Below, in pieces: positions 10,103 through 20,369 of a stretch of 20,489 nt of DNA (position 1 is the first letter of the stretch; the number at the start of each line of letters is the position of its first letter). Below the pieces are notes generated by a model. It was not told the DNA's origin, made no database searches, and saw only the letters and a program-made list of their open reading frames with translations. The DNA lies in the IMG/VR virus record IMGVR_UViG_3300049825_000002, positions 1-20,489 of that record. The stretch is one strand, 5' to 3'. Source of the stretch: a virus. Made by a program: the position numbers and the translations under genes.

Positions 10103-10507
10103 TTACGATGCGCCGTGAATAACGCAAAAGTTAATAATTACAGCTTCGGCTAATGGAGCCGCAGTATTGTTAAACAAACCAATTACAGCGCTGCCCGTTG
10201 CTAAACTAGCAACGTACGGCCAATAAGCACCTGAAGTGCCACCACCAGACACGTTAACAATAACTACATCTCTTGCACTAATTACAGTGTTATTTAATGT
10301 AAAAAGCACTACAGCTTGGTTAGCCAACGATGCTGCGTTCATGGTGATACGACCCATAGAAGTGTTTAGCGTAACTGCGGTAGATTTGCTTGTTGCTTGA
10401 GTAACTGTACCTTGAGCAACAGATGAATAGCCAAGTTCTTCAGTGGCATAGCAAGTGCTAAATTCAGGGTCTAGATACGCAACACCAGTAGCTTTGGTAT
10501 TAGGCAT
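10103..10507 (-). CDS. Putative head decoration-like protein
   Basis: A 134-residue protein with a short leader (PNTKATGVAYLDPEFS) followed by a strand-rich domain. The stretch GTVTQATSKSTAVTLNTSMG, then ITMNAASLANQAVVLFTLNN, VVIVNVSGGGTSGAY and PLAEAVIINFCVIHG, is a widespread phage domain, often encoded beside the coat gene and left unnamed. No catalytic motif is seen. With the gene upstream (131 residues) it forms a pair of small beta-rich proteins right after the major coat, so capsid decoration is a reasonable but unproved guess. The start is supported by TTAAGGAAAAA. Hairpins lie on both sides of the gene. Confidence 0.58.
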   Translation of the reverse strand: MPNTKATGVAYLDPEFSTCYATEELGYSSVAQGTVTQATSKSTAVTLNTSMGRITMNAASLANQAVVLFTLNNTVISARDVVIVNVSGGGTSGAYWPYVASLATGSAVIGLFNNTAAPLAEAVIINFCVIHGAS

Positions 10508-10553: not shown

Positions 10554-10949
10554 TTAACCAGCGATACGATAGAAAACGTAGACGTTTTCAGCCGTCTTGC
10601 GAACGCGCCATTGACAAGCAGAGTTCGCTGCAACCGCTGCTACACCAACTAATGTACAACCTGTATTAGCTGTTACTGTAGCGGCGTTTGTGCCACCGAT
10701 ATTAATAATGTTGAAATCAAAAGAGCTATTTACTTTCATGTTGCCAAAAGCTGTTTCTAGGGCAACACCTGTAGGTACGGTTAAAGCTAAAGCCGCGCCG
10801 TTGTAAGTAATAATCCCGTTTGCTAATTCTTCGGCAGTTAAAGTCGCTGCGCCTGTTTTAGCTATTGGGGCTGTTTGAGTCCCCATAACGATTTCATCTA
10901 AATTACCATCACCAACTTGGTAACCATTTGCGCCATTTGGAAGTGCCAT
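10554..10949 (-). CDS. Putative head decoration-like protein
   Basis: A 131-residue protein. A Gly/Asn-rich start (ALPNGANGYQVGDGNLDE) and a TLTAEELANGIITYNG segment lead into a small beta domain (about 55-131) with FDFNIINIGGTNAATVTANT and a final QWRVRKTAENVYVFYRIAG. Such proteins are frequent directly after phage coat genes and have no fixed name. The beta domain is reminiscent of the C-terminal part of the 310-residue fibre-like protein, so an exposed capsid protein is plausible. The gene lies between two terminators, with its own strong AAGGAAA Shine-Dalgarno, and no promoter is visible in the 59-base gap upstream. Its expression probably comes from read-through of the coat terminator. 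Confidence 0.6.
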   Translation of the reverse strand: MALPNGANGYQVGDGNLDEIVMGTQTAPIAKTGAATLTAEELANGIITYNGAALALTVPTGVALETAFGNMKVNSSFDFNIINIGGTNAATVTANTGCTLVGVAAVAANSACQWRVRKTAENVYVFYRIAG

Positions 10950-11008: not shown

Positions 11009-12214
11009 TTAACCCCAGATACGGCAAGCCATCGCAGGGCGAATTGTGCTAAAGCCATATAGAACGTCAATACGGCAAGGTAAACGGTCGTTATTGATGT
11101 CGTACTGACGTACAACACGCATAGAGATACCGTTGTGAACTTGGCGGGAAGCCATGTCTACACCTTGTGGCAACAACAAGTCAGCGGTCGCAAAAGTGAT
11201 CGCATCTTTGTGGTAAACCAAGTTTTGAGCGTACTGGCTAGTAGCTGCACCAAACATCGTTACTACAGCGCCAGCTACAGGGAATGAATCCACAGTTGCC
11301 AAAGCGTTAGATGATGTATAGATAGCTGGGCTGATAGCCAAAGTAGTTGTTGCACTAGCACCAGTAACAGCAGCGGTTACGGTAAACTGTTGCAAGCTAC
11401 CTGTGGACTCACGGGTTTGTGGGTTAACAGAGTACACGTTAGCGATTGTAAATACATCGCCTACGTTCCATGACTGTGAACCACCTGTAAAGCTGATACC
11501 TAAAGTAGCTTGACCTTGGGTAGCAACAGTAGAAGTTACAGTAATGGTTGTACCCCAAGTACCTGTTGTGTGTTGCTTGATAGATTGGCTCATGTTGATT
11601 TCTTCGTAGCCCAATACACCCATACCCATCATGCCATTCTTGAACTGACGGCTGATTGTGTCTGTAGGATTAAACAGACCTTTCATGCCTTCAACCAAGC
11701 CTGCGTTAGCTGCTGGGTTAACAGTAGCGTAACGTGGGGACATAACAGCAGCAGCTTCGTTCAGCTTTTGTTGCGCTTGCAACAGAACCAAAGAAGTAGA
11801 TGGAGTTGTACCAGGAGTACCAACAGAAGCAGAAATAGCTTTGTAAGCATTAGCTACGTCAGCGTCGATAGAAGAAGCCAACTGTGAGATACGTGGTTTT
11901 AGAACACGCTCTGCAAAGTCATCTAACTGCATTGTCAATTCAGCAGAGGTGAAGTTAACACCAATGTGCTTTTGTGACGCAACAGTCAAAGTTGTGAACT
12001 GCTCGTTGTCGTCCTGAACTTGCAGGGCGGCACCGTCAGTTACCAAAGCGCGGTCTGGTAAGCGGATACGCAGTGTAGAACCAATTTTGGCACCTTCAAC
12101 AGCAAAGGAGTCGTCATATTGGCGGTTTACGTTACGTGTAAGAACAAGGTTGTTTTCAAGAATTTCTAAAGCCTTCCTTGTTATCATGTCGATCGTTAAG
12201 ATTGAATTACTCAT
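11009..12214 (-). CDS. Major capsid (coat) protein, P22 gp5 family
   Basis: A 401-residue coat protein (P22 gp5 has 430). The N-terminus ILTIDMITRKALEILENNL and the following RQYDDSFAVEGAKIGSTLRI match the N-arm and E-loop region of P22-type coats. The HK97-like core continues with FTSAELTMQLDDFAERVLKP. Residues about 213-325 are Thr/Ser/Gly-rich and strand-rich, in the place of the P22 insertion (I) domain, and the core resumes at DAITFATADLLLPQG. It builds the icosahedral head together with the scaffold encoded 23 nt upstream. An AGGA Shine-Dalgarno sits 6 nt before the ATG, and a strong terminator follows. A phage GroES is encoded in the same window, and P22 coat folding is known to need GroEL/ES. 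Confidence 0.88.
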   Translation of the reverse strand: MSNSILTIDMITRKALEILENNLVLTRNVNRQYDDSFAVEGAKIGSTLRIRLPDRALVTDGAALQVQDDNEQFTTLTVASQKHIGVNFTSAELTMQLDDFAERVLKPRISQLASSIDADVANAYKAISASVGTPGTTPSTSLVLLQAQQKLNEAAAVMSPRYATVNPAANAGLVEGMKGLFNPTDTISRQFKNGMMGMGVLGYEEINMSQSIKQHTTGTWGTTITVTSTVATQGQATLGISFTGGSQSWNVGDVFTIANVYSVNPQTRESTGSLQQFTVTAAVTGASATTTLAISPAIYTSSNALATVDSFPVAGAVVTMFGAATSQYAQNLVYHKDAITFATADLLLPQGVDMASRQVHNGISMRVVRQYDINNDRLPCRIDVLYGFSTIRPAMACRIWG

Positions 12215-12237: not shown

Positions 12238-13023
12238 TTAGCGGTTTCTCTGCGCTTCCCACTTCTTGATCTGACGTTGGCGATCAGCTTCAATCCACTC
12301 TGAAGTCGTCATGCTTTTAATGGCACGAGGATCCGTTGTGTCTGTTGCTGAAGATCCAGAGGATCTTGCCGTAATCGGAGCAATTGGTGCTGGGGCGCTC
12401 GAAGTCTTTTTTACAACTGGGTTATCAGCTAATTTAGCCTCAATTTTCCCTAATTCTTTGGCTTGTTGGAGTGGCGATAACCGAGAAATACGATCTGCTT
12501 CTTTCGGATTAGACCCTAGGTAATAAGCCATGTCGGGGCCAACATCGGAAGATTGAATCGTTTGAGCCATAGCGTCAGTAATTGGAAGCTTGGGGTTGTA
12601 GGCAACTTGTTCAAAGTCGTCGTACTTATTCCTAGCATCTTCTTCTCTGTCGTGGTAGGACTCAATGATCTCAGACTGCATCCTAGCTTGTTCACGCCTA
12701 GCAAGCAATTCTTCTGCCTTACGCTCCGCCAAAACTTCGGCATATTCGTCTGGTGAAGCAAACTGCTCAATCGGCGGGATTTCTACTGGAGTTTTAAGCT
12801 GCTTTTCAGCGGCTCTAGCTGCCTGTTCTCTTTCCCACTTACGTTGTTCTCTAGCAAGTCGTTTACCAATAGCGGCATCAAGTTCTTCTTGCGAAAAGGT
12901 CTTGGGTGCTTCTGCTGCTGGTTCTACTGCTTCCGGCGCTAATTCTTCAGCTTCAGGTGCAGCCGTTGCCACCTGTTCTGGCGCGGATACTTCCGCTGGT
13001 ACTACTTCTTGACTTTCGTCCAT
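12238..13023 (-). CDS. Scaffolding protein
   Basis: A 261-residue hydrophilic protein just upstream of the coat gene, as in P22. It has an acidic Glu/Ala/Pro-rich N-terminus (1-42), a long charged helical region rich in Arg, Glu, Lys and Gln (about 43-130) with coiled-coil character, and a C-terminus with the basic amphipathic segment WIEADRQRQIKKWEAQRNR. In P22 scaffolding protein a basic C-terminal helix-turn-helix binds the coat. The protein would direct procapsid assembly and leave before DNA packaging. It is shorter than P22 gp8 (303). The start is supported by AAGGAAA about nine bases upstream. A sigma70-type promoter and a small hairpin precede it. Confidence 0.8.
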   Translation of the reverse strand: MDESQEVVPAEVSAPEQVATAAPEAEELAPEAVEPAAEAPKTFSQEELDAAIGKRLAREQRKWEREQAARAAEKQLKTPVEIPPIEQFASPDEYAEVLAERKAEELLARREQARMQSEIIESYHDREEDARNKYDDFEQVAYNPKLPITDAMAQTIQSSDVGPDMAYYLGSNPKEADRISRLSPLQQAKELGKIEAKLADNPVVKKTSSAPAPIAPITARSSGSSATDTTDPRAIKSMTTSEWIEADRQRQIKKWEAQRNR

Positions 13024-13076: not shown

Positions 13077-13105
13077 AATATATTCTTAAACTTTTGGTTC
13101 GTCAA
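13077..13105 (-). promoter_or_regulatory. Sigma70-type promoter for the scaffold-coat module
   Basis: TTGACG (13100-13105) and TATATT (13077-13082) are separated by exactly 17 bases, each hexamer matching the consensus at five of six positions. The -35 box overlaps the tailspike stop codon, and transcription would begin near 13070, about 45 bases before the scaffold start. It lies in one of the few real intergenic gaps of the window. Confidence 0.65.
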
Positions 13106-15216
13106 GCATTTGCAGGAGCTTTATGTATTAAAACAGGCAATCTTCTTGTAGAAGTTACCAAAGCATTTCCATTCATTGTGACAGTTGGGGAACTAATTGC
13201 GGTGATTCTAGTGCTAATATTTGACGCAAAATTATCTGTTTCAGCAGAAGCCAAGAAAGCGTCATCAACAACACCATCAAAAGCGTATGTTCCTGCCGAT
13301 GTTCCTATGTTTGTAATGTTCGCACTTCCGCTAGTAAATGTACCTTGTTGCCAATTACTATTTAAATAACAACGCCCAATACTTGAATATATAAACCCAG
13401 TATTAGTTAAGGTAGCTAAACAATCACCATTGTCGTCAAATCCATTTTGAAGTTCTGCTGTAACTACACCAAGTGTTCTAGCTCTAATATAGAAAAAATA
13501 AAGCAAACCATTTGCGTCCACATACGTTAAAACATCTCCTGGGTTAAACCCACGAACATTGTATAAATCTTCATTACCAAAAGCCGAAGATAAAGTAATT
13601 GTTGCGGTTCTTCCAATTAAAGAAATAGTATATGCGCTAGGGTTAATTATGTAGTCATACTGCCCAAGAGGATTCATAACACCTAAATCATGCCCAAAAG
13701 CAGTTACAGTAGCAGCAGAATAAATAGTATCTGAATTTCTATAAATTAAAGCTGTTCTTGAAGAATATGAATAATTTGAATTTAATAATACATCGCCACC
13801 CAAAGAATTTCCTGTAGTTAAATCGTAACCAATAAATTGATAAGAAGCATTTAATTGTGAATTAGGCCCTGTATTAATTAAACCTAAAGACTGTAATGGA
13901 TAAGCGTTATATACAGGAACAGCACCGCCTGTACCACCATTTCTGTAAGGCCCCCATGCGCTTAAATACAAATAACCATCACTAAAATTCATTTGCTTAA
14001 CTTCAAAAACTGGATTGCCAACAAAGCCAGCCATGTAGCAACCTTGCATATTGACAATAGAATTAGCGTTACCAACTATAAAAGCTCTAGGTGCGCCAGC
14101 AGTTTGTTGTTTATCAAAATTCCAATTACAACCAATCATATTTAAACAATCAGTTACTTGACCGCCTGAACCATAAGAACCAAGGGTATATAAAGTTTCA
14201 GCGTAACAACCTTCAAATACAGTTGGCCCACCTAATTGCGAAGTAGCAGTAATTAACTGAATACACCTGTCAAATTCAGTAGCGCGTACAACAAAACAAG
14301 GTTTGCCATTTTGGGCGCCGTTAGTAATTGTTGTTAAGCAGGTATGAACATCGGCAAAATTACAATCAGTAATTCCAAAATTTCTAGCTTGCGTTTGGCT
14401 AATACTTACGCCATAAGCACAAAATTCAATTTCAGAATTTTGCATACGGACAAACTCGCCTTGCATATCGTAACCTGAAGGCTGGGTTACTATTCCAACA
14501 ACAAAACCACCAATATAGACGTTATCTAAAATAATACCGCTAGAAGATACTTTATTGTATTGAGTTTGCGTTCCTAAAAATGAGGGATAAGTAACAGACG
14601 GATACGCAGGTGTTGGTTGTGCGCCTGAATACCCATCTACGCAAATACCAGCATAGGGGGCATAACGACTATTAGCATTGGCGTTTAAAGCTGGGTCTAT
14701 CCATGCACTTACGGCTAAGTCTGGGATATCTGGGTTTAAATCGCCTAATGCTTGGCTAGAAATCCAGTCATAATTAAGACCAATAATACTAAGCCCACGC
14801 AATACGGTATGTCTTACACCTTGAAAATTAATAGCAGGTGCGTTAGAAAAGTTAGCAGTAATTGTTGTTCCAGCAAAATATTCATCTTGACCACGCCAAC
14901 ATACTCCATCACCTTCAATTTCAACGCCGGTGTATGGGCCAGTAACCGTACCACCAGAAGCACCGTATCCAACTTGTAATGTTTTAGAAATTAAATAAGT
15001 ACCAGCGGGGATGTAAAGTTTGCATTTGCCTTGGTACATTGCATAGTCAATAGCATTTTGTAACGCAACAACATCATCGGTAGTTCCATCGCCAACAGCA
15101 CCAAAATCTTTAGCAGAAACTATATCTTGTGCTTTTTGATTAATGGTTCTATTGATAGCACCAGTAGGTGTGGTGCCACCATTCATTAAATCAATTTTTG
15201 GAATCAACGTGGTCAT
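13102..15216 (-). CDS. Tailspike with pectate-lyase-type right-handed beta-helix
   Basis: A 704-residue protein. The [12 protein letters not shown] motif (37-48), with ALQNAI and [12 protein letters not shown] after it, is the entry sequence of the Pectate_lyase_3 beta-helix fold used by phage tailspikes. Repeated strand/turn units ([43 protein letters not shown]) run to about residue 400, and a beta-rich C-terminal region follows. Tailspikes of this fold bind, and often cleave or deacetylate, surface polysaccharide; I cannot identify the catalytic residues. The N-terminus is only about 36 residues before the helix, so it lacks a full head-binding domain and may attach through another protein. 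It is visibly A+T-richer than the portal. The start is supported by TAGGAAA. Confidence 0.82.
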
Positions 15217-15224
15217 TTTGTTTC

Positions 15225-16028
15225 CTATGGATGAGATGCTACATAAGCATCAAATTTAGCACTTAATTCTTTAACGGCAGCAATTAAATATACGTTTATA
15301 ACATTAGGGTCATAAGAGTAAACTTCGCCTAATGTTGGGTCAACTTGAGGGGAAACAACCATTGCGTCAGGTATTGCTGCGCCTACATCTTGTGCAAAAT
15401 GACCATATTGAGGTGCGCCTGTTTGCGGTTGATTTTTGTAATAAAAACTAACGGGGTTAAGTTTGTTTATAGCGTCTAAAGCACTAGTAACATCTGCTAC
15501 TTTGTTTTTTAACCTTTTATCTGAAGTTGCTGGAACCCATGTAGAACCACCAGGAGCAAGATAAACACCAACACCGCCTTCGTTTTGAATAATAAAGAAA
15601 GGCGTTGCATCAGGAGTTGCTCCAATTACAAAATATTTACCAGCAGTTGAACTTGAATTTCTAACTGCTAATTGACCACCAGTTGCGCTTGCACCAACAA
15701 ATGAGTGCATATTACTTTGCAATACAGCGTTAGTATTTAGTAATAAATTTGTACCGTTAAATTGTAAATTAGCACTATTAGCAAAGGCACTTGTCGCATT
15801 TCCATAAGGAATGTAATTGGCGGTAAGACTCGTTAGCCCTGTACCGCCAGAACCAACAGGTAAAGGTGTAGTTGTCAAAGCAAGACTTGCAGCGCTAACC
15901 GCGCGGCCAGCAGTTAAATCAGATACAGCTACCTTTTTAGTGACGCCACTTTGAACAATAGGCAATACTTCAGTACCCGCAAGCGGTGTAGTTGAAGCGG
16001 GGAGGGCTGAAATTTTTACGTCTGCCAT
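15225..16028 (-). CDS. Tail fibre with C-terminal S74 intramolecular chaperone
   Basis: A 267-residue protein. The N-terminus ([20 protein letters not shown], 1-20) is a short leader common in phage fibres. [11 protein letters not shown] unit lies at about 59-68, then a strand-rich middle. From S169, SDKRLK starts the peptidase S74 (endosialidase-type) chaperone, with [15 protein letters not shown] and [13 protein letters not shown] after it. In this family the chaperone drives trimerisation and then cuts itself off at the conserved Ser-Asp, so the mature fibre would be about 168 residues, short for such proteins. AAAGGA precedes the start. It lies between the adapter-like fibre and the tailspike, and its A+T-rich middle resembles those neighbours. 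Confidence 0.85.
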
Positions 16029-16039
16029 GATCTAATCCT

Positions 16040-16879
16040 TTATGGTACTAAATTAGTAATTGATGTAACTGTACCGCTAGTAATTGTAACGGTGCCTAAT
16101 GAATAAAATTTTCCTGTGACCGTACCTGTAATTGCGTAAGTGCCTTTGGGAACAAAAACGGCTTGCGGGTTAGCTTCCGCCCAAGCATTTGTAAAAGCAG
16201 TAGTGCTATTAGTTGCGCCTGTTCTATCTGCACCAAAATCTAAAACAGAAATTGACTCTCTTAATTTAGTTTGAACAGTAGTAGCTACGGCGTTTGTTCC
16301 AGCAGGTGTGTAAATTACTAAAGAAGCATTAGTTACGCCCACAGATAAAATTGCAGACGTAGTAAAGTCAACTACATCACCTACATTTAAGCCACTTATA
16401 AATGTAACAGTTGTTGAATTAGTTTCAACGTAATTAGTGCTAAGAACTTGTTTACTACCATTTACATATACGTTTAAAGTGTTAGTGCCAGGCGTGTAAG
16501 TAATAGTTGTTAAAGTAAATACAGTTTGACTTTGAGTTGCGTTAAAAATTTGTTTTTGGACGTTATAGTTTACAAAATTGGAGTTAATACCAATAATGTT
16601 GTCATAAGTCCCAATTAATACATCGTTAGCGTCTTTAAGAACAAATTTGTACTGAACATTGTCTGTTAACCAAATTTCACCTCCAGCGGGTACGCGACCT
16701 GCGGCATCAAGAATAATAGGGTTACTATGAAAAGTAACGCCTGTGGCGCTTGTGTAAGTTGGTGAGGGAGTAGTTGTACCAGCTAAGTATGTGTATAACT
16801 TGCCGCCTGTCAATACATTACCGCTATTGTCGAAGAACTGTACTGCTGCACCGCCGACAGGGGATAGAAATACGGCCAT
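16040..16879 (-). CDS. Tail fibre/adapter with N-terminal anchor and short beta-helix start
   Basis: A 279-residue protein. Residues 1-100 (LSPVGGAAVQFFDNSG, GGKLYTYLAGTT, DAAGRVPAGGEIWL) are the N-terminal virion-binding block frequent in podovirus tailspikes. Residues about 105-175 form a small beta domain with LNVYVNGSKQV and STTVTF. SISVLDFGAD (209-218) then opens a pectate-lyase-type beta-helix, with AVFVPKGTYAI after it, but the protein stops about 60 residues later. It is therefore either an adapter that carries the following fibres or the remnant of a longer spike. I favour an adapter, since the frame is clean and AAGGAA precedes the start. It is first of three tail genes in a row. 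Confidence 0.75.
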   Translation of the reverse strand: MAVFLSPVGGAAVQFFDNSGNVLTGGKLYTYLAGTTTPSPTYTSATGVTFHSNPIILDAAGRVPAGGEIWLTDNVQYKFVLKDANDVLIGTYDNIIGINSNFVNYNVQKQIFNATQSQTVFTLTTITYTPGTNTLNVYVNGSKQVLSTNYVETNSTTVTFISGLNVGDVVDFTTSAILSVGVTNASLVIYTPAGTNAVATTVQTKLRESISVLDFGADRTGATNSTTAFTNAWAEANPQAVFVPKGTYAITGTVTGKFYSLGTVTITSGTVTSITNLVP

Positions 16880-16888
16880 ATTTATTCC

Positions 16889-17047
16889 TTAAACTTGAAT
16901 AAAACCACCGTCCTCTTGGACGAGGTTGTCGTTATTTTCAGTAATTAAATTGCCAAACTCTTGATCTCGACCATAACCCGAAAAGAACGTGGCAATATTG
17001 CCAAGCCCTACGGCTATGCCGGTACGGAGTCCAACACCCCAACTCAT
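16889..17047 (-). CDS. Small Gly-rich protein, 52 residues, coupled to the upstream gene
   Basis: The ATG at 17047 lies within the stop of the 101-residue gene (ATGA), and the frame runs 52 codons to TAA at 16889, just before the Shine-Dalgarno of the next gene. The protein starts MSWGVGLRTGIAVGLGNIAT, a Gly-rich hydrophobic segment that could be a membrane span. It continues with FFSGYGRDQE and ends in a polar LITENNDNLVQEDGGFIQV tail. Small proteins of this build recur in phage head-tail regions without an assigned function. The exact fit between both neighbours and the overlapping start support it as a real gene over a longer shadow frame on the same strand. Confidence 0.68.
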   Translation of the reverse strand: MSWGVGLRTGIAVGLGNIATFFSGYGRDQEFGNLITENNDNLVQEDGGFIQV

Positions 17048-17358: not shown

Positions 17359-17721
17359 TTATGCTAAAAAGCGTAATTTATACAAAGTGCTGAGGTATAG
17401 CTCAATAATACCGTCAATTAAATTTTGTAATGGTGCATCTGTCTTATCGCATACATCGTAACGCATGGCTTCAATTTCAGCAAGCTGAGATTCTAAGAAT
17501 TCAACCACATTTGATGTCTTTTTTGCAGACATCAAACTGATAGGGCCAATTAGACCATGACGGCCTTGGTAGGCTTCCGCAAATGAGTCTGCTAAATCAA
17601 TAATGTTCTCGTAGAACTTTTGCAAAGCCTTATGTTTTGCATAGCTACGGGTGTTTAAATGAACACTATGGGTTACATCACGGGCGAGGAATAAGAGTCC
17701 TACAAAATCAGAGCATTTCAT
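17359..17721 (-). CDS. Helical protein, DUF5856/ferritin-like candidate
   Basis: A 120-residue, entirely helical-looking protein. Residues 17-56 carry THSVHLNTRSYAKHKAL and FYENIIDLADSFAEAYQG, with His18, His21, His30 and a D42-x-x-D45-x-x-x-E49 row. This resembles the DUF5856 phage family, which has a Dps/ferritin-like four-helix layout. A second helical pair with LESQLAEIEAMRYD and QNLIDGIIELYLSTLYKLR follows. If the likeness holds, metal binding or DNA protection is possible, but this is inferred from pattern only. It starts within the portal stop (ATGA), so it is translationally coupled to the portal gene; its stop overlaps the Shine-Dalgarno of the next gene. Confidence 0.55.
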   Translation of the reverse strand: MKCSDFVGLLFLARDVTHSVHLNTRSYAKHKALQKFYENIIDLADSFAEAYQGRHGLIGPISLMSAKKTSNVVEFLESQLAEIEAMRYDVCDKTDAPLQNLIDGIIELYLSTLYKLRFLA

Positions 17722-19964
17722 TGTGGCATCATCCCTTCTGGCGGCATTTGTTCAGGTGGCATCATCTCAGGTGCCATTGGTTGTTGCATTGGCATCTCTG
17801 GTTGCTGTTCTTCTTGCATTTCCATTGCGGTGTCACGTTGCATCTCGGTTACAAGATCGCCGTTTACCATCATGCCATGCACAGTTCCCATAACAATATC
17901 TTGGATTTGTTCAGGTGACATAGACGCTTGAACAGCCGTCAAACGCTTGGTTTCAGCATCAAATAGCTTGATTTGAGCCTCAAAGTCTTTACGCTCCAAG
18001 TCTTGCATTTCAATGGATTTACCCACGTTTTGCAACATTTGGTGCATTTGTTCCATTTCCTGACCCATTGCTTGCATTTGTTGTTGCGCTGCTTGCAACT
18101 CAGGATTTTCGTCTGTATCGGACATGAGTTTAGGATCAATAGTCTTAGCCAAACGCTTAGACATCTCTTGGGCGCCAGGCCAATCCATATTCTTAACAAA
18201 TAGATCGCCCGCAACCGACCATAACTGAGGATTGCCCTGCAAAATCTGAGCCATAGCTTCCATTGCCTCTTGGCGCTTAGTCATGTAGCCTGGGCCAGTA
18301 GTAGCAACCACATCGTACACACCAACGCTAGGGTTGTAGATTTTTTCAATCACAATACCTGCTTGATCGGTGATTTTCTTAACCGCTTCAGGCTGATCAG
18401 GGTTTAACTTGACCATAGACACTTCACCATCCACGCCTACGATACGGGCAATACGCTCGGTGTCGTAAATCTTAGGAATCAGGTCAATTAATTGACGCGT
18501 TGCAAAGCGAATCGCTTTAGTCAGGTTGTCACCGTAATGGAAAGTACCCACATCACCTTGGCGTTCTCTTGCAAGAATAGCTTTCCCCGAGCGTTCGTTG
18601 CTTGTGGCACCTAAGCTCGAGTCATACTGTCCAGTTGTGGACTTGATATCATCAGACGCGCCCATTTTGGCTTGGATAAGACCAGTTTGTGCCAAAGGAG
18701 GTGGGGCGCGTTGTGGAAGTGGCAAAGTTGCGCCCATTCCATCAGTTACATCGGGGTTAACTTCCAAATACGGCCAATTGGTCGTGTTGGCAGTTTTCCA
18801 CTGCATTTCGTAGCCCTCAAATTGACCGCCATAACCGATAAACGGTGCTTTTGGAGCCAATGCAAGCATTTCTGCCTCTTGAGATACCCAGTAGTTGTAC
18901 ATACGTTGTGCATCTTTGGCATTTCTTACCAAGCCAGACACATAAATACGGCCATCTACTTCAAATTCGTTACCTACTACACGGATCACAGGGATCCACT
19001 TGCCCGCCCATTCCTGTTCTTGGAGGACTTCATAACCATTGGACTTCATCCACATGACTTTTTTGACGTCTACCGTGCGGGATTTAATGGGTTTTAAGCC
19101 CATTTCTTTCATATTCTTATCTTCAAGGCTGCCATCAAAAAATGATTGGTTGCCAGGATACAGATTGAGCTTAGTTGGGGTGTGCTTGTAGTAAAAATAC
19201 TCAACAATACGGATCGTATTCTCATTAATCCATTGGGATAGGGACTGATCGCCTACACCTTGGGACATAATCGACGTAATGGGCGCGGCATCAGGATATT
19301 GACGCTCGTATTCGTCTTTTTCAATGTCTTGGCTAATAAAACACCACTCGGCATCGCAACCAGCAGGGTCTTGGATCATCGGATCCATATAAACGCTAAA
19401 CGAGTTGCGAATACGGCCTAAGCAAATGTCTTGATCAAAGCTGTCATCGTTACAGAATTCAGTCAGGATACGGAAATACCCTTCACCGTAAGTTGTTTGG
19501 TTCTCGCAGGCGGTGTCATAGACCACATCAGCGTCAGACATATACTCGATATGGCGAACCATACCTTCAAATACTTCGGCTACTTCAATGTCGCCTTTGT
19601 CGTCCGCAGGGATCACTTTCCCAGAGGGTCGGTTCTGACGTTGTTCGTTTGTTACCTGGTGGACGTGCTGTGGCAGTTTGTTGATTGTCAAACAAGGACG
19701 CGCATTGATGGTCTGTCCTTGAACAGATCCGCGAGTAGCCAATACGTCAGCAGGCCATTGCCACTGGTTATCAGGGCTACCTGCCATAAAGCGCAAGTCA
19801 TCTAGCTCATCTTCACGGGATTCAGAATACGCAGACATTGCCATCTGAAAACGATGGCGCATAGTAGCTAAAGAATCGGATTGATCTTCAGGCGTAGAGG
19901 TGGGGTTACTGCCTACGTTGGCTACTTTGCCAACGATATTCATGGACGTATTATCGTATGCCAT
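17718..19964 (-). CDS. Portal protein, P22 gp1 family
   Basis: A 748-residue portal protein (P22 gp1 has 725). After a disordered start (1-25), the FQMAMSAYSESREDELDDLRFMAGSP block, INKLPQHVHQVTNEQRQNRP and TYGEGYFRI are hallmarks of the P22 portal family, as is RNSFSVYMDPMIQDPAGCDAEWCF. The dodecamer sits at one head vertex, takes in DNA with the terminase and later binds the gp4-like adaptor. The C-terminal part (about 620-715) is a Gln/Met/Glu-rich coiled-coil region, in the place of the long helical barrel of P22. It ends in a Met/Pro/Gln tail with PEMMPPEQMPPEGMM. Its ATG lies inside the co-chaperonin gene (14-nt overlap), and its stop overlaps the next start (ATGA). Confidence 0.9.
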   Translation of the reverse strand: MAYDNTSMNIVGKVANVGSNPTSTPEDQSDSLATMRHRFQMAMSAYSESREDELDDLRFMAGSPDNQWQWPADVLATRGSVQGQTINARPCLTINKLPQHVHQVTNEQRQNRPSGKVIPADDKGDIEVAEVFEGMVRHIEYMSDADVVYDTACENQTTYGEGYFRILTEFCNDDSFDQDICLGRIRNSFSVYMDPMIQDPAGCDAEWCFISQDIEKDEYERQYPDAAPITSIMSQGVGDQSLSQWINENTIRIVEYFYYKHTPTKLNLYPGNQSFFDGSLEDKNMKEMGLKPIKSRTVDVKKVMWMKSNGYEVLQEQEWAGKWIPVIRVVGNEFEVDGRIYVSGLVRNAKDAQRMYNYWVSQEAEMLALAPKAPFIGYGGQFEGYEMQWKTANTTNWPYLEVNPDVTDGMGATLPLPQRAPPPLAQTGLIQAKMGASDDIKSTTGQYDSSLGATSNERSGKAILARERQGDVGTFHYGDNLTKAIRFATRQLIDLIPKIYDTERIARIVGVDGEVSMVKLNPDQPEAVKKITDQAGIVIEKIYNPSVGVYDVVATTGPGYMTKRQEAMEAMAQILQGNPQLWSVAGDLFVKNMDWPGAQEMSKRLAKTIDPKLMSDTDENPELQAAQQQMQAMGQEMEQMHQMLQNVGKSIEMQDLERKDFEAQIKLFDAETKRLTAVQASMSPEQIQDIVMGTVHGMMVNGDLVTEMQRDTAMEMQEEQQPEMPMQQPMAPEMMPPEQMPPEGMMPQ

Positions 19965-20229
19965 CTAGTATCCCAATGATGTCAGGTTCGCGCATAATCA
20001 GTAATTCTTCGCCGTCAATGGTTACTTTTTGCCCACTGAATTCACCAAAAAGTACGTGTTGACCTTCTTCTACATTCATTGGCTCAAGCCCACCTTTCGG
20101 TAATCTTTTTCCCTCACCAATAGCAACAATTACGCCGCTAAATAGCTTGTTTTGGGGTAGAACAATTAATTCTGACAGCTTTTCAATATCTTGCCTGATT
20201 AAAACACAATTACTTAACGGACGCATCAT
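19951..20229 (-). CDS. groES: Phage-encoded GroES-type co-chaperonin
   Basis: A 92-residue protein of GroES (Cpn10) length and order. The N-terminal MMRPLSNCVLIRQD matches the RPL-x-D-x-V first strand. Residues 17-32 form the mobile loop with the I22-V23-L24 tripeptide that contacts GroEL. GVIVAIGEGKR and the C-terminal GEELLIMREPDIIGIL follow the GroES pattern. The mobile-loop region looks a little shorter than in E. coli GroES. It would cap the host GroEL chamber; phages such as T4 (gp31) use their own co-chaperonin to fold the coat, and P22-type coats are GroEL clients. The start overlaps the previous stop (ATGA), and two ATG codons are adjacent. The portal gene begins inside its 3' end. 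Confidence 0.86.
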   Translation of the reverse strand: MMRPLSNCVLIRQDIEKLSELIVLPQNKLFSGVIVAIGEGKRLPKGGLEPMNVEEGQHVLFGEFSGQKVTIDGEELLIMREPDIIGILDGIR

Positions 20230-20369
20230 TTTTTTGTTTTACCTTTAGCTGCTTCACGCTTGACTGAATACGCAATTGCTAGTGCCTGCTTGACGGGCTT
20301 GCCACTTTTGACCTCAGCCTTGACGTTAGCACGGAAGGCTTCTTTACTTGGGCTTTTCTTGAGCGGCAT
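20226..20369 (-). CDS. Small Lys-rich phage protein, 47 residues
   Basis: A 47-residue basic protein (MPLKKSPSKEAFRANVKAEV, then KSGKPVKQALAIAYSVKREA and a Lys-rich end). The K(S/T)xSKEAxxxNVKAE...GKPxKQAxAIA pattern recurs in short phage and bacterial proteins of unknown function (DUF6496-like). About a third of its residues are Lys or Arg, so it could bind nucleic acid, but no fold motif shows this. It starts within the previous stop (TAATG), and its own stop overlaps the co-chaperonin start (ATGA), so it sits in a translationally linked row ahead of the portal gene. I consider the gene real and the function unknown. Confidence 0.7.
   Translation of the reverse strand: MPLKKSPSKEAFRANVKAEVKSGKPVKQALAIAYSVKREAAKGKTKK
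20229..20235 (-). other. A7 run with slippery-site form at the end of the 47-residue gene
   Basis: On the minus strand the 47-residue gene ends ACA AAA AAA TGA, which gives the heptamer A-AAA-AAA directly before the stop. A shift of -1 would continue in the co-chaperonin frame, while ordinary ATGA restart would also express it. No downstream stimulatory stem was identified. Confidence 0.35.

Follow-up and report, generated by a model that had tools for sequence, protein, structure and literature searches.

The window, the whole 20,489-nucleotide stretch of viral DNA analysed here (IMG/VR record IMGVR_UViG_3300049825_000002), carries a P22-type head module made up of a portal, a scaffold and a coat with an I-domain (PF16510, phrog_8865 and PF11651), and directly before the portal gene lies a small gene for a GroES-like co-chaperonin. 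A P22-type head had already been proposed in a preliminary description made from the letters alone, and the profile scores (562 bits for P22_portal, 145 bits for P22_CoatProtein) bear it out. The features on which the argument rests are the following.

20226-20369, minus strand: small basic protein, 47 aa (from the sequence and the relatives L091, L096, L097 and L110)
19951-20229, minus strand: Cpn10/GroES co-chaperonin, 92 aa (PF00166, E 1.8e-17; fold match to Cpn10; dN/dS 0.087)
17718-19964, minus strand: P22-type portal (PF16510 P22_portal, 562.6 bits)
17359-17721, minus strand: DUF5856/phrog_858 protein after the portal (PF19174, 81.9 bits; order conserved in relatives)
12238-13023, minus strand: head scaffolding protein (phrog_8865, E 2.4e-28)
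11009-12214, minus strand: P22-type coat with an ordinary I-domain (PF11651 P22_CoatProtein, 145.3 bits; PDB profile match to gene 5 protein; I-domain fold match)

The junctions on either side of the Cpn10 gene are tight, its start ATG overlapping the TGA of the small basic gene by 4 nt and its stop reaching 14 nt into the portal gene, the overlap with the portal start that had been described before. Tailspike- or fibre-like genes at 13102-17047 lie between the portal and DUF5856 genes and those for the scaffold and coat, interrupting the usual P22 head order, and the same is seen in the phage DSL-LC05. Downstream of the coat gene two proteins of about 130 aa (10103-10507 and 10554-10949) are possible capsid decoration proteins, and at 494-991 an HNH endonuclease-like ORF stands directly upstream of the endolysin gene.

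The product of 19951-20229 is a genuine Cpn10 subunit of a phage-specific lineage. The ORF is complete, and PF00166 covers residues 2-87 of its product at 63.6 bits against a cut-off of 21.1, so that a profile search, which had been named in advance as able to overturn the assignment, places the protein inside Cpn10; its PHROG match is PHROG 3188, co-chaperonin GroES. Fourteen NCBIfam GroES models also match but none of the 14 above its curated cut-off, the best score being 70.4 bits against 120 (PRK00364 series), and the protein is therefore a Cpn10 outside the named cellular NCBIfam subfamilies. Searched with phmmer against solved GroES chains it gives a best E of 2.7e-15, and with the AlphaFold2 model (mean pLDDT 83.6) the top Foldseek matches in the PDB are all Cpn10 (best E 7e-8, TM 0.79-0.86), the predicted model having the GroES beta-barrel fold. 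The IVL tripeptide of the mobile loop occupies residues 22-24, and the roof region, with its hairpin, spans approximately residues 39-53, where EGKRLPKGGLEPMNV aligns to the GroES roof. The reading of a complete GroES-length protein with an IVL motif, and of a phage co-chaperonin within a head cluster, is thus upheld by profile, fold and position. The gene is real and not a chance reading frame, given 97 IMG/VR stretches with relatives and a dN/dS of about 0.09, and the window phage is a freshwater phage with its own small copy of GroES, the lid with which bacteria shut their protein-folding chamber.

Those 97 confirmed relatives come from one IMG/VR scan; the locus was fetched for 80 of them, and in 78 the portal start can be read and Cpn10 lies next to it. 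In all scans together Cpn10 neighbours this portal at 187 loci; it overlaps or closely abuts the portal at 175 and is separated from it by extra DNA at 12, for two of which the contents were identified by reading, in each case an HNH-type endonuclease gene (L029:6268-6800 and L044:6268-6800). The two scans made without Cpn10 as the query, with coat and with portal, find it in the slot before the portal in 6 of 22 and 32 of 76 readable loci respectively, so the gene is common and not universal. At four loci (L091, L096, L097 and L110) a homologue of the small basic gene runs straight into the portal with no Cpn10 between, and the slot has three natural states, namely roofed Cpn10, roofless Cpn10 and empty. 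Whole-record searches of 27 further records, several of them 36-38 kb, found no Cpn10 in 25; since IMG/VR records may be incomplete, its absence is firm for the slot and only probable for the whole genome. Cpn10 matches in 'Acinetobacter phage MD-2021a' were set aside as bacterial groS-groL operons on mislabelled contigs, and CAKLQH020000021.1 (L336), also named as an Acinetobacter phage, has a groS-groL operon beside metabolic genes and seems to be host DNA under a wrong label.

Median pairwise dN/dS is 0.087 for roofed and 0.10 for roofless Cpn10, the neighbouring portal giving 0.07-0.11, and the Cpn10 of this slot is under purifying selection. In the Cpn10 tree a branch with support 95/89 divides the slot proteins from the GroES proteins of bacterial genomes with related phage contigs, from those of E. 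coli and Thermus, and from the proteins of two other phages. This separation from bacterial GroES points to a lineage long established in phages rather than to a host gene copied recently. The trees are unrooted and give no direction of Cpn10 gain or loss, and the placement of the long branches L115 and PBR31 is unsure. The Cpn10 lineage is found only in phages, its genes standing immediately ahead of the same portal in contigs of freshwater viruses.

Measured over the stretch set by a pair of aligned anchors (window residues 9 and 32), the mobile loop has 24 residues, 5 fewer than the 29 of E. coli and Thermus GroES, and so the short loop noticed earlier is real. It is also shared across the lineage, 24 residues being the length in 43 of 50 distinct roofed forms and in 32 of 32 roofless ones, with an overall range of 23-27. 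The tip is mainly hydrophobic in all variants, LIVLP in most roofed and of FILLR type in most roofless forms, and the IVL tripeptide of the window protein is predicted to bind GroEL. A loop that is short throughout the lineage is more probably adapted to binding GroEL than to the coat, and the shortening could weaken that binding. The roof hairpin is lost in a sister lineage of about 82 aa, examples of which sit in the same slot at L082:7592-7837, L246:1892-2137 and L204:1309-1554. The last of these joins a window-type loop to a missing roof, so that roof loss possibly occurred twice; the roofless proteins form a single group in 48% of bootstrap trees. A third and very divergent form of 87 aa (about 38% identical) lies in the slot before a related portal at L115:4166-4426.

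A short loop in the whole lineage, with binding kinetics that may therefore differ from those of host GroES, and a gene that is optional would also suit a Cpn10 that acts as a competitor, seizing or blocking host GroEL and diverting it from host or defence proteins, with phage folding not the main job. We regard this as improbable, in that purifying selection has preserved the roof and the tip, which a working lid requires, and a late position in the head cluster suits folding better than an early takeover.

The claim in the preliminary description that the phage carries its own cap to suit its coat, possibly an altered or insertion-bearing one, is not supported. A special coat was sought by profile, phylogeny and I-domain fold, and the window coat is of the standard P22/Sf6/CUS-3 type. 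Aligned by profile with the P22-like gene 5 protein of Sf6 it shows no large insertions, and the I-domain (model residues approximately 213-320) matches CUS-3, Sf6 and P22 in fold, CUS-3 most closely; the coat model has a mean pLDDT of 51 and is poor outside the I-domain, to which the fold comparison was confined. The earlier premise that P22 gp5 needs GroEL/ES is probably too strong, the dependence being clear for temperature-sensitive folding mutants.

A lid specifically fitted to the window coat, which host GroES could not serve, would have in its favour the place of the gene in the head cluster adjoining the portal and the precedent of T4 gp31 as a coat-specific co-chaperonin (PMC6318259), but relatives with coats 81-90% identical have a slot without Cpn10, and searches of the remainder of their records turned up none either. 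With nearly the same coat present and the gene absent, Cpn10 has the look of a helpful addition, not of a cap made for the window coat. Further, the coat tree mixes Cpn10-bearing and Cpn10-free genomes, and a tree constrained to keep the roofed genomes as a single clade is rejected, being worse by 93.6 log-likelihood units (p 7.2e-5), so coats have probably been exchanged between genomes with and without the gene. Coat length (398-404 aa) and domain plan are also the same in the roofed, roofless and empty states. Taken with these observations a coat-fitted lid seems unlikely.

The portal tree, unlike that of the coat, allows a single roofed clade (its support is only 63), and this together with the constant position directly before the portal might point to a Cpn10 fold turned to a GroEL-independent use, either as a structural element of the portal vertex or in portal assembly. 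Yet portals about 70% identical occur without Cpn10, nearly all forms retain the GroEL-binding tip, and position alone accounts for the linkage with the portal; such a role is very improbable.

The reading that we favour, and which seems probable, is that the gene encodes an accessory lid that is synthesised alongside the head proteins, works with the host's GroEL and is optional for this coat type. By analogy with the family, seven Cpn10 subunits would form the lid, which would bind host GroEL through the hydrophobic IVL-type loop tip. Since the gene and the portal share a late cluster of tightly overlapping genes, the lid would be expected to appear during head protein synthesis. It might then add to or replace host GroES in folding phage structural proteins, the coat being the likeliest client, and would most likely make coat folding more productive or more robust when host GroES is in short supply. 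A search of 19 long genomes for a gene family that tracks Cpn10, and hence for the client, gave no clean candidate, because many genes differ by clade. No Cpn60 was found in 16 long records, each with one Cpn10, and so host GroEL should be the partner. Related portals occur in genome bins labelled Burkholderiales, Rhodoferax, other Betaproteobacteria, Gammaproteobacteria and Methylococcaceae, labels that serve only as a pointer to the host because bins can hold stray phage contigs. Another lies in a 769-kb isolate contig of Rhizorhabdus histidinilytica (L323, NZ_FUYM01000001.1), where a related P22-type head module without Cpn10 is likely a prophage and a possible culturable relative.

In T4 gp31 the loss of the roof is usually explained as making room for a larger coat. 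We raise tentatively, as an idea that may well not hold, that one short-loop lineage lost the roof in some members while the coat encoded alongside stayed the same in size and type (398-404 aa), for a cause other than a larger coat, for example a match to host GroEL or a faster release of the lid. If so, the roofed, roofless and empty slots would make a comparative system for the cause of roof loss.

Amongst known systems the closest is DSL-LC05 (OR003940.1), an uncultivated freshwater phage of the proposed family Luchaoviridae, in which likewise a Cpn10 gene overlaps the portal and is followed by a DUF5856-like gene, tailspike genes, scaffold and coat. Over full length its portal is 72% and its coat 73% identical to those of the window, a coat identity of 94% being limited to a 48-residue match at the end of the locus. 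Its Cpn10 differs, having 82 aa, about 30-35% identity, no roof hairpin and a FILLR-type tip in place of LIVLP. That gene is already annotated as co-chaperonin GroES and so the arrangement itself is on record, although the main text of the DSL-LC05 paper makes no mention of GroES (PMC10611076); what is new here is the fixed short loop of the lineage and the roofless sister form.

Bacterial GroES (E. coli 1aon, H. thermoluteolus 8wuc) shares with the window protein the fold, the roof region and the hydrophobic loop tip, and it is 34-45% identical to the GroES of bacteria in whose genome bins related phage contigs occur, whereas the window protein has the shorter loop, LSEL in place of TASG/SAGG before the tip, and a separate clade. 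Phage-encoded Cpn10 is also found in pelagiphages of HTVC023P type (as a core gene), Pseudoalteromonas phage B8b and Xanthomonas phage PBR31 (PMC9599517, PMC4294664), the likeness of the HTVC023P-type and B8b proteins being drawn by description; the PBR31 gene differs in lying before the terminase, in its long loop and in its tree branch. T4 gp31 resembles the window protein as a phage co-chaperonin fold (Foldseek E 3e-3, TM 0.65), but it lacks roof loops, and its mobile loop is longer, with 22 residues against 16 in GroES (PMC6318259). The window protein departs from this gp31-type combination on both counts, in that it keeps the roof and has a loop shorter than that of GroES, and only the roofless sister form shares the absence of a roof.

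Phage co-chaperonins are usually explained from one case, that of T4 gp31 with its large coat. In this one phage group a single slot can hold a roofed lid, a roofless lid or no lid while coat length stays the same, which makes it possible to ask how a phage benefits from a GroEL lid of its own and whether it is the client or the host chaperonin to which such lids become adapted.
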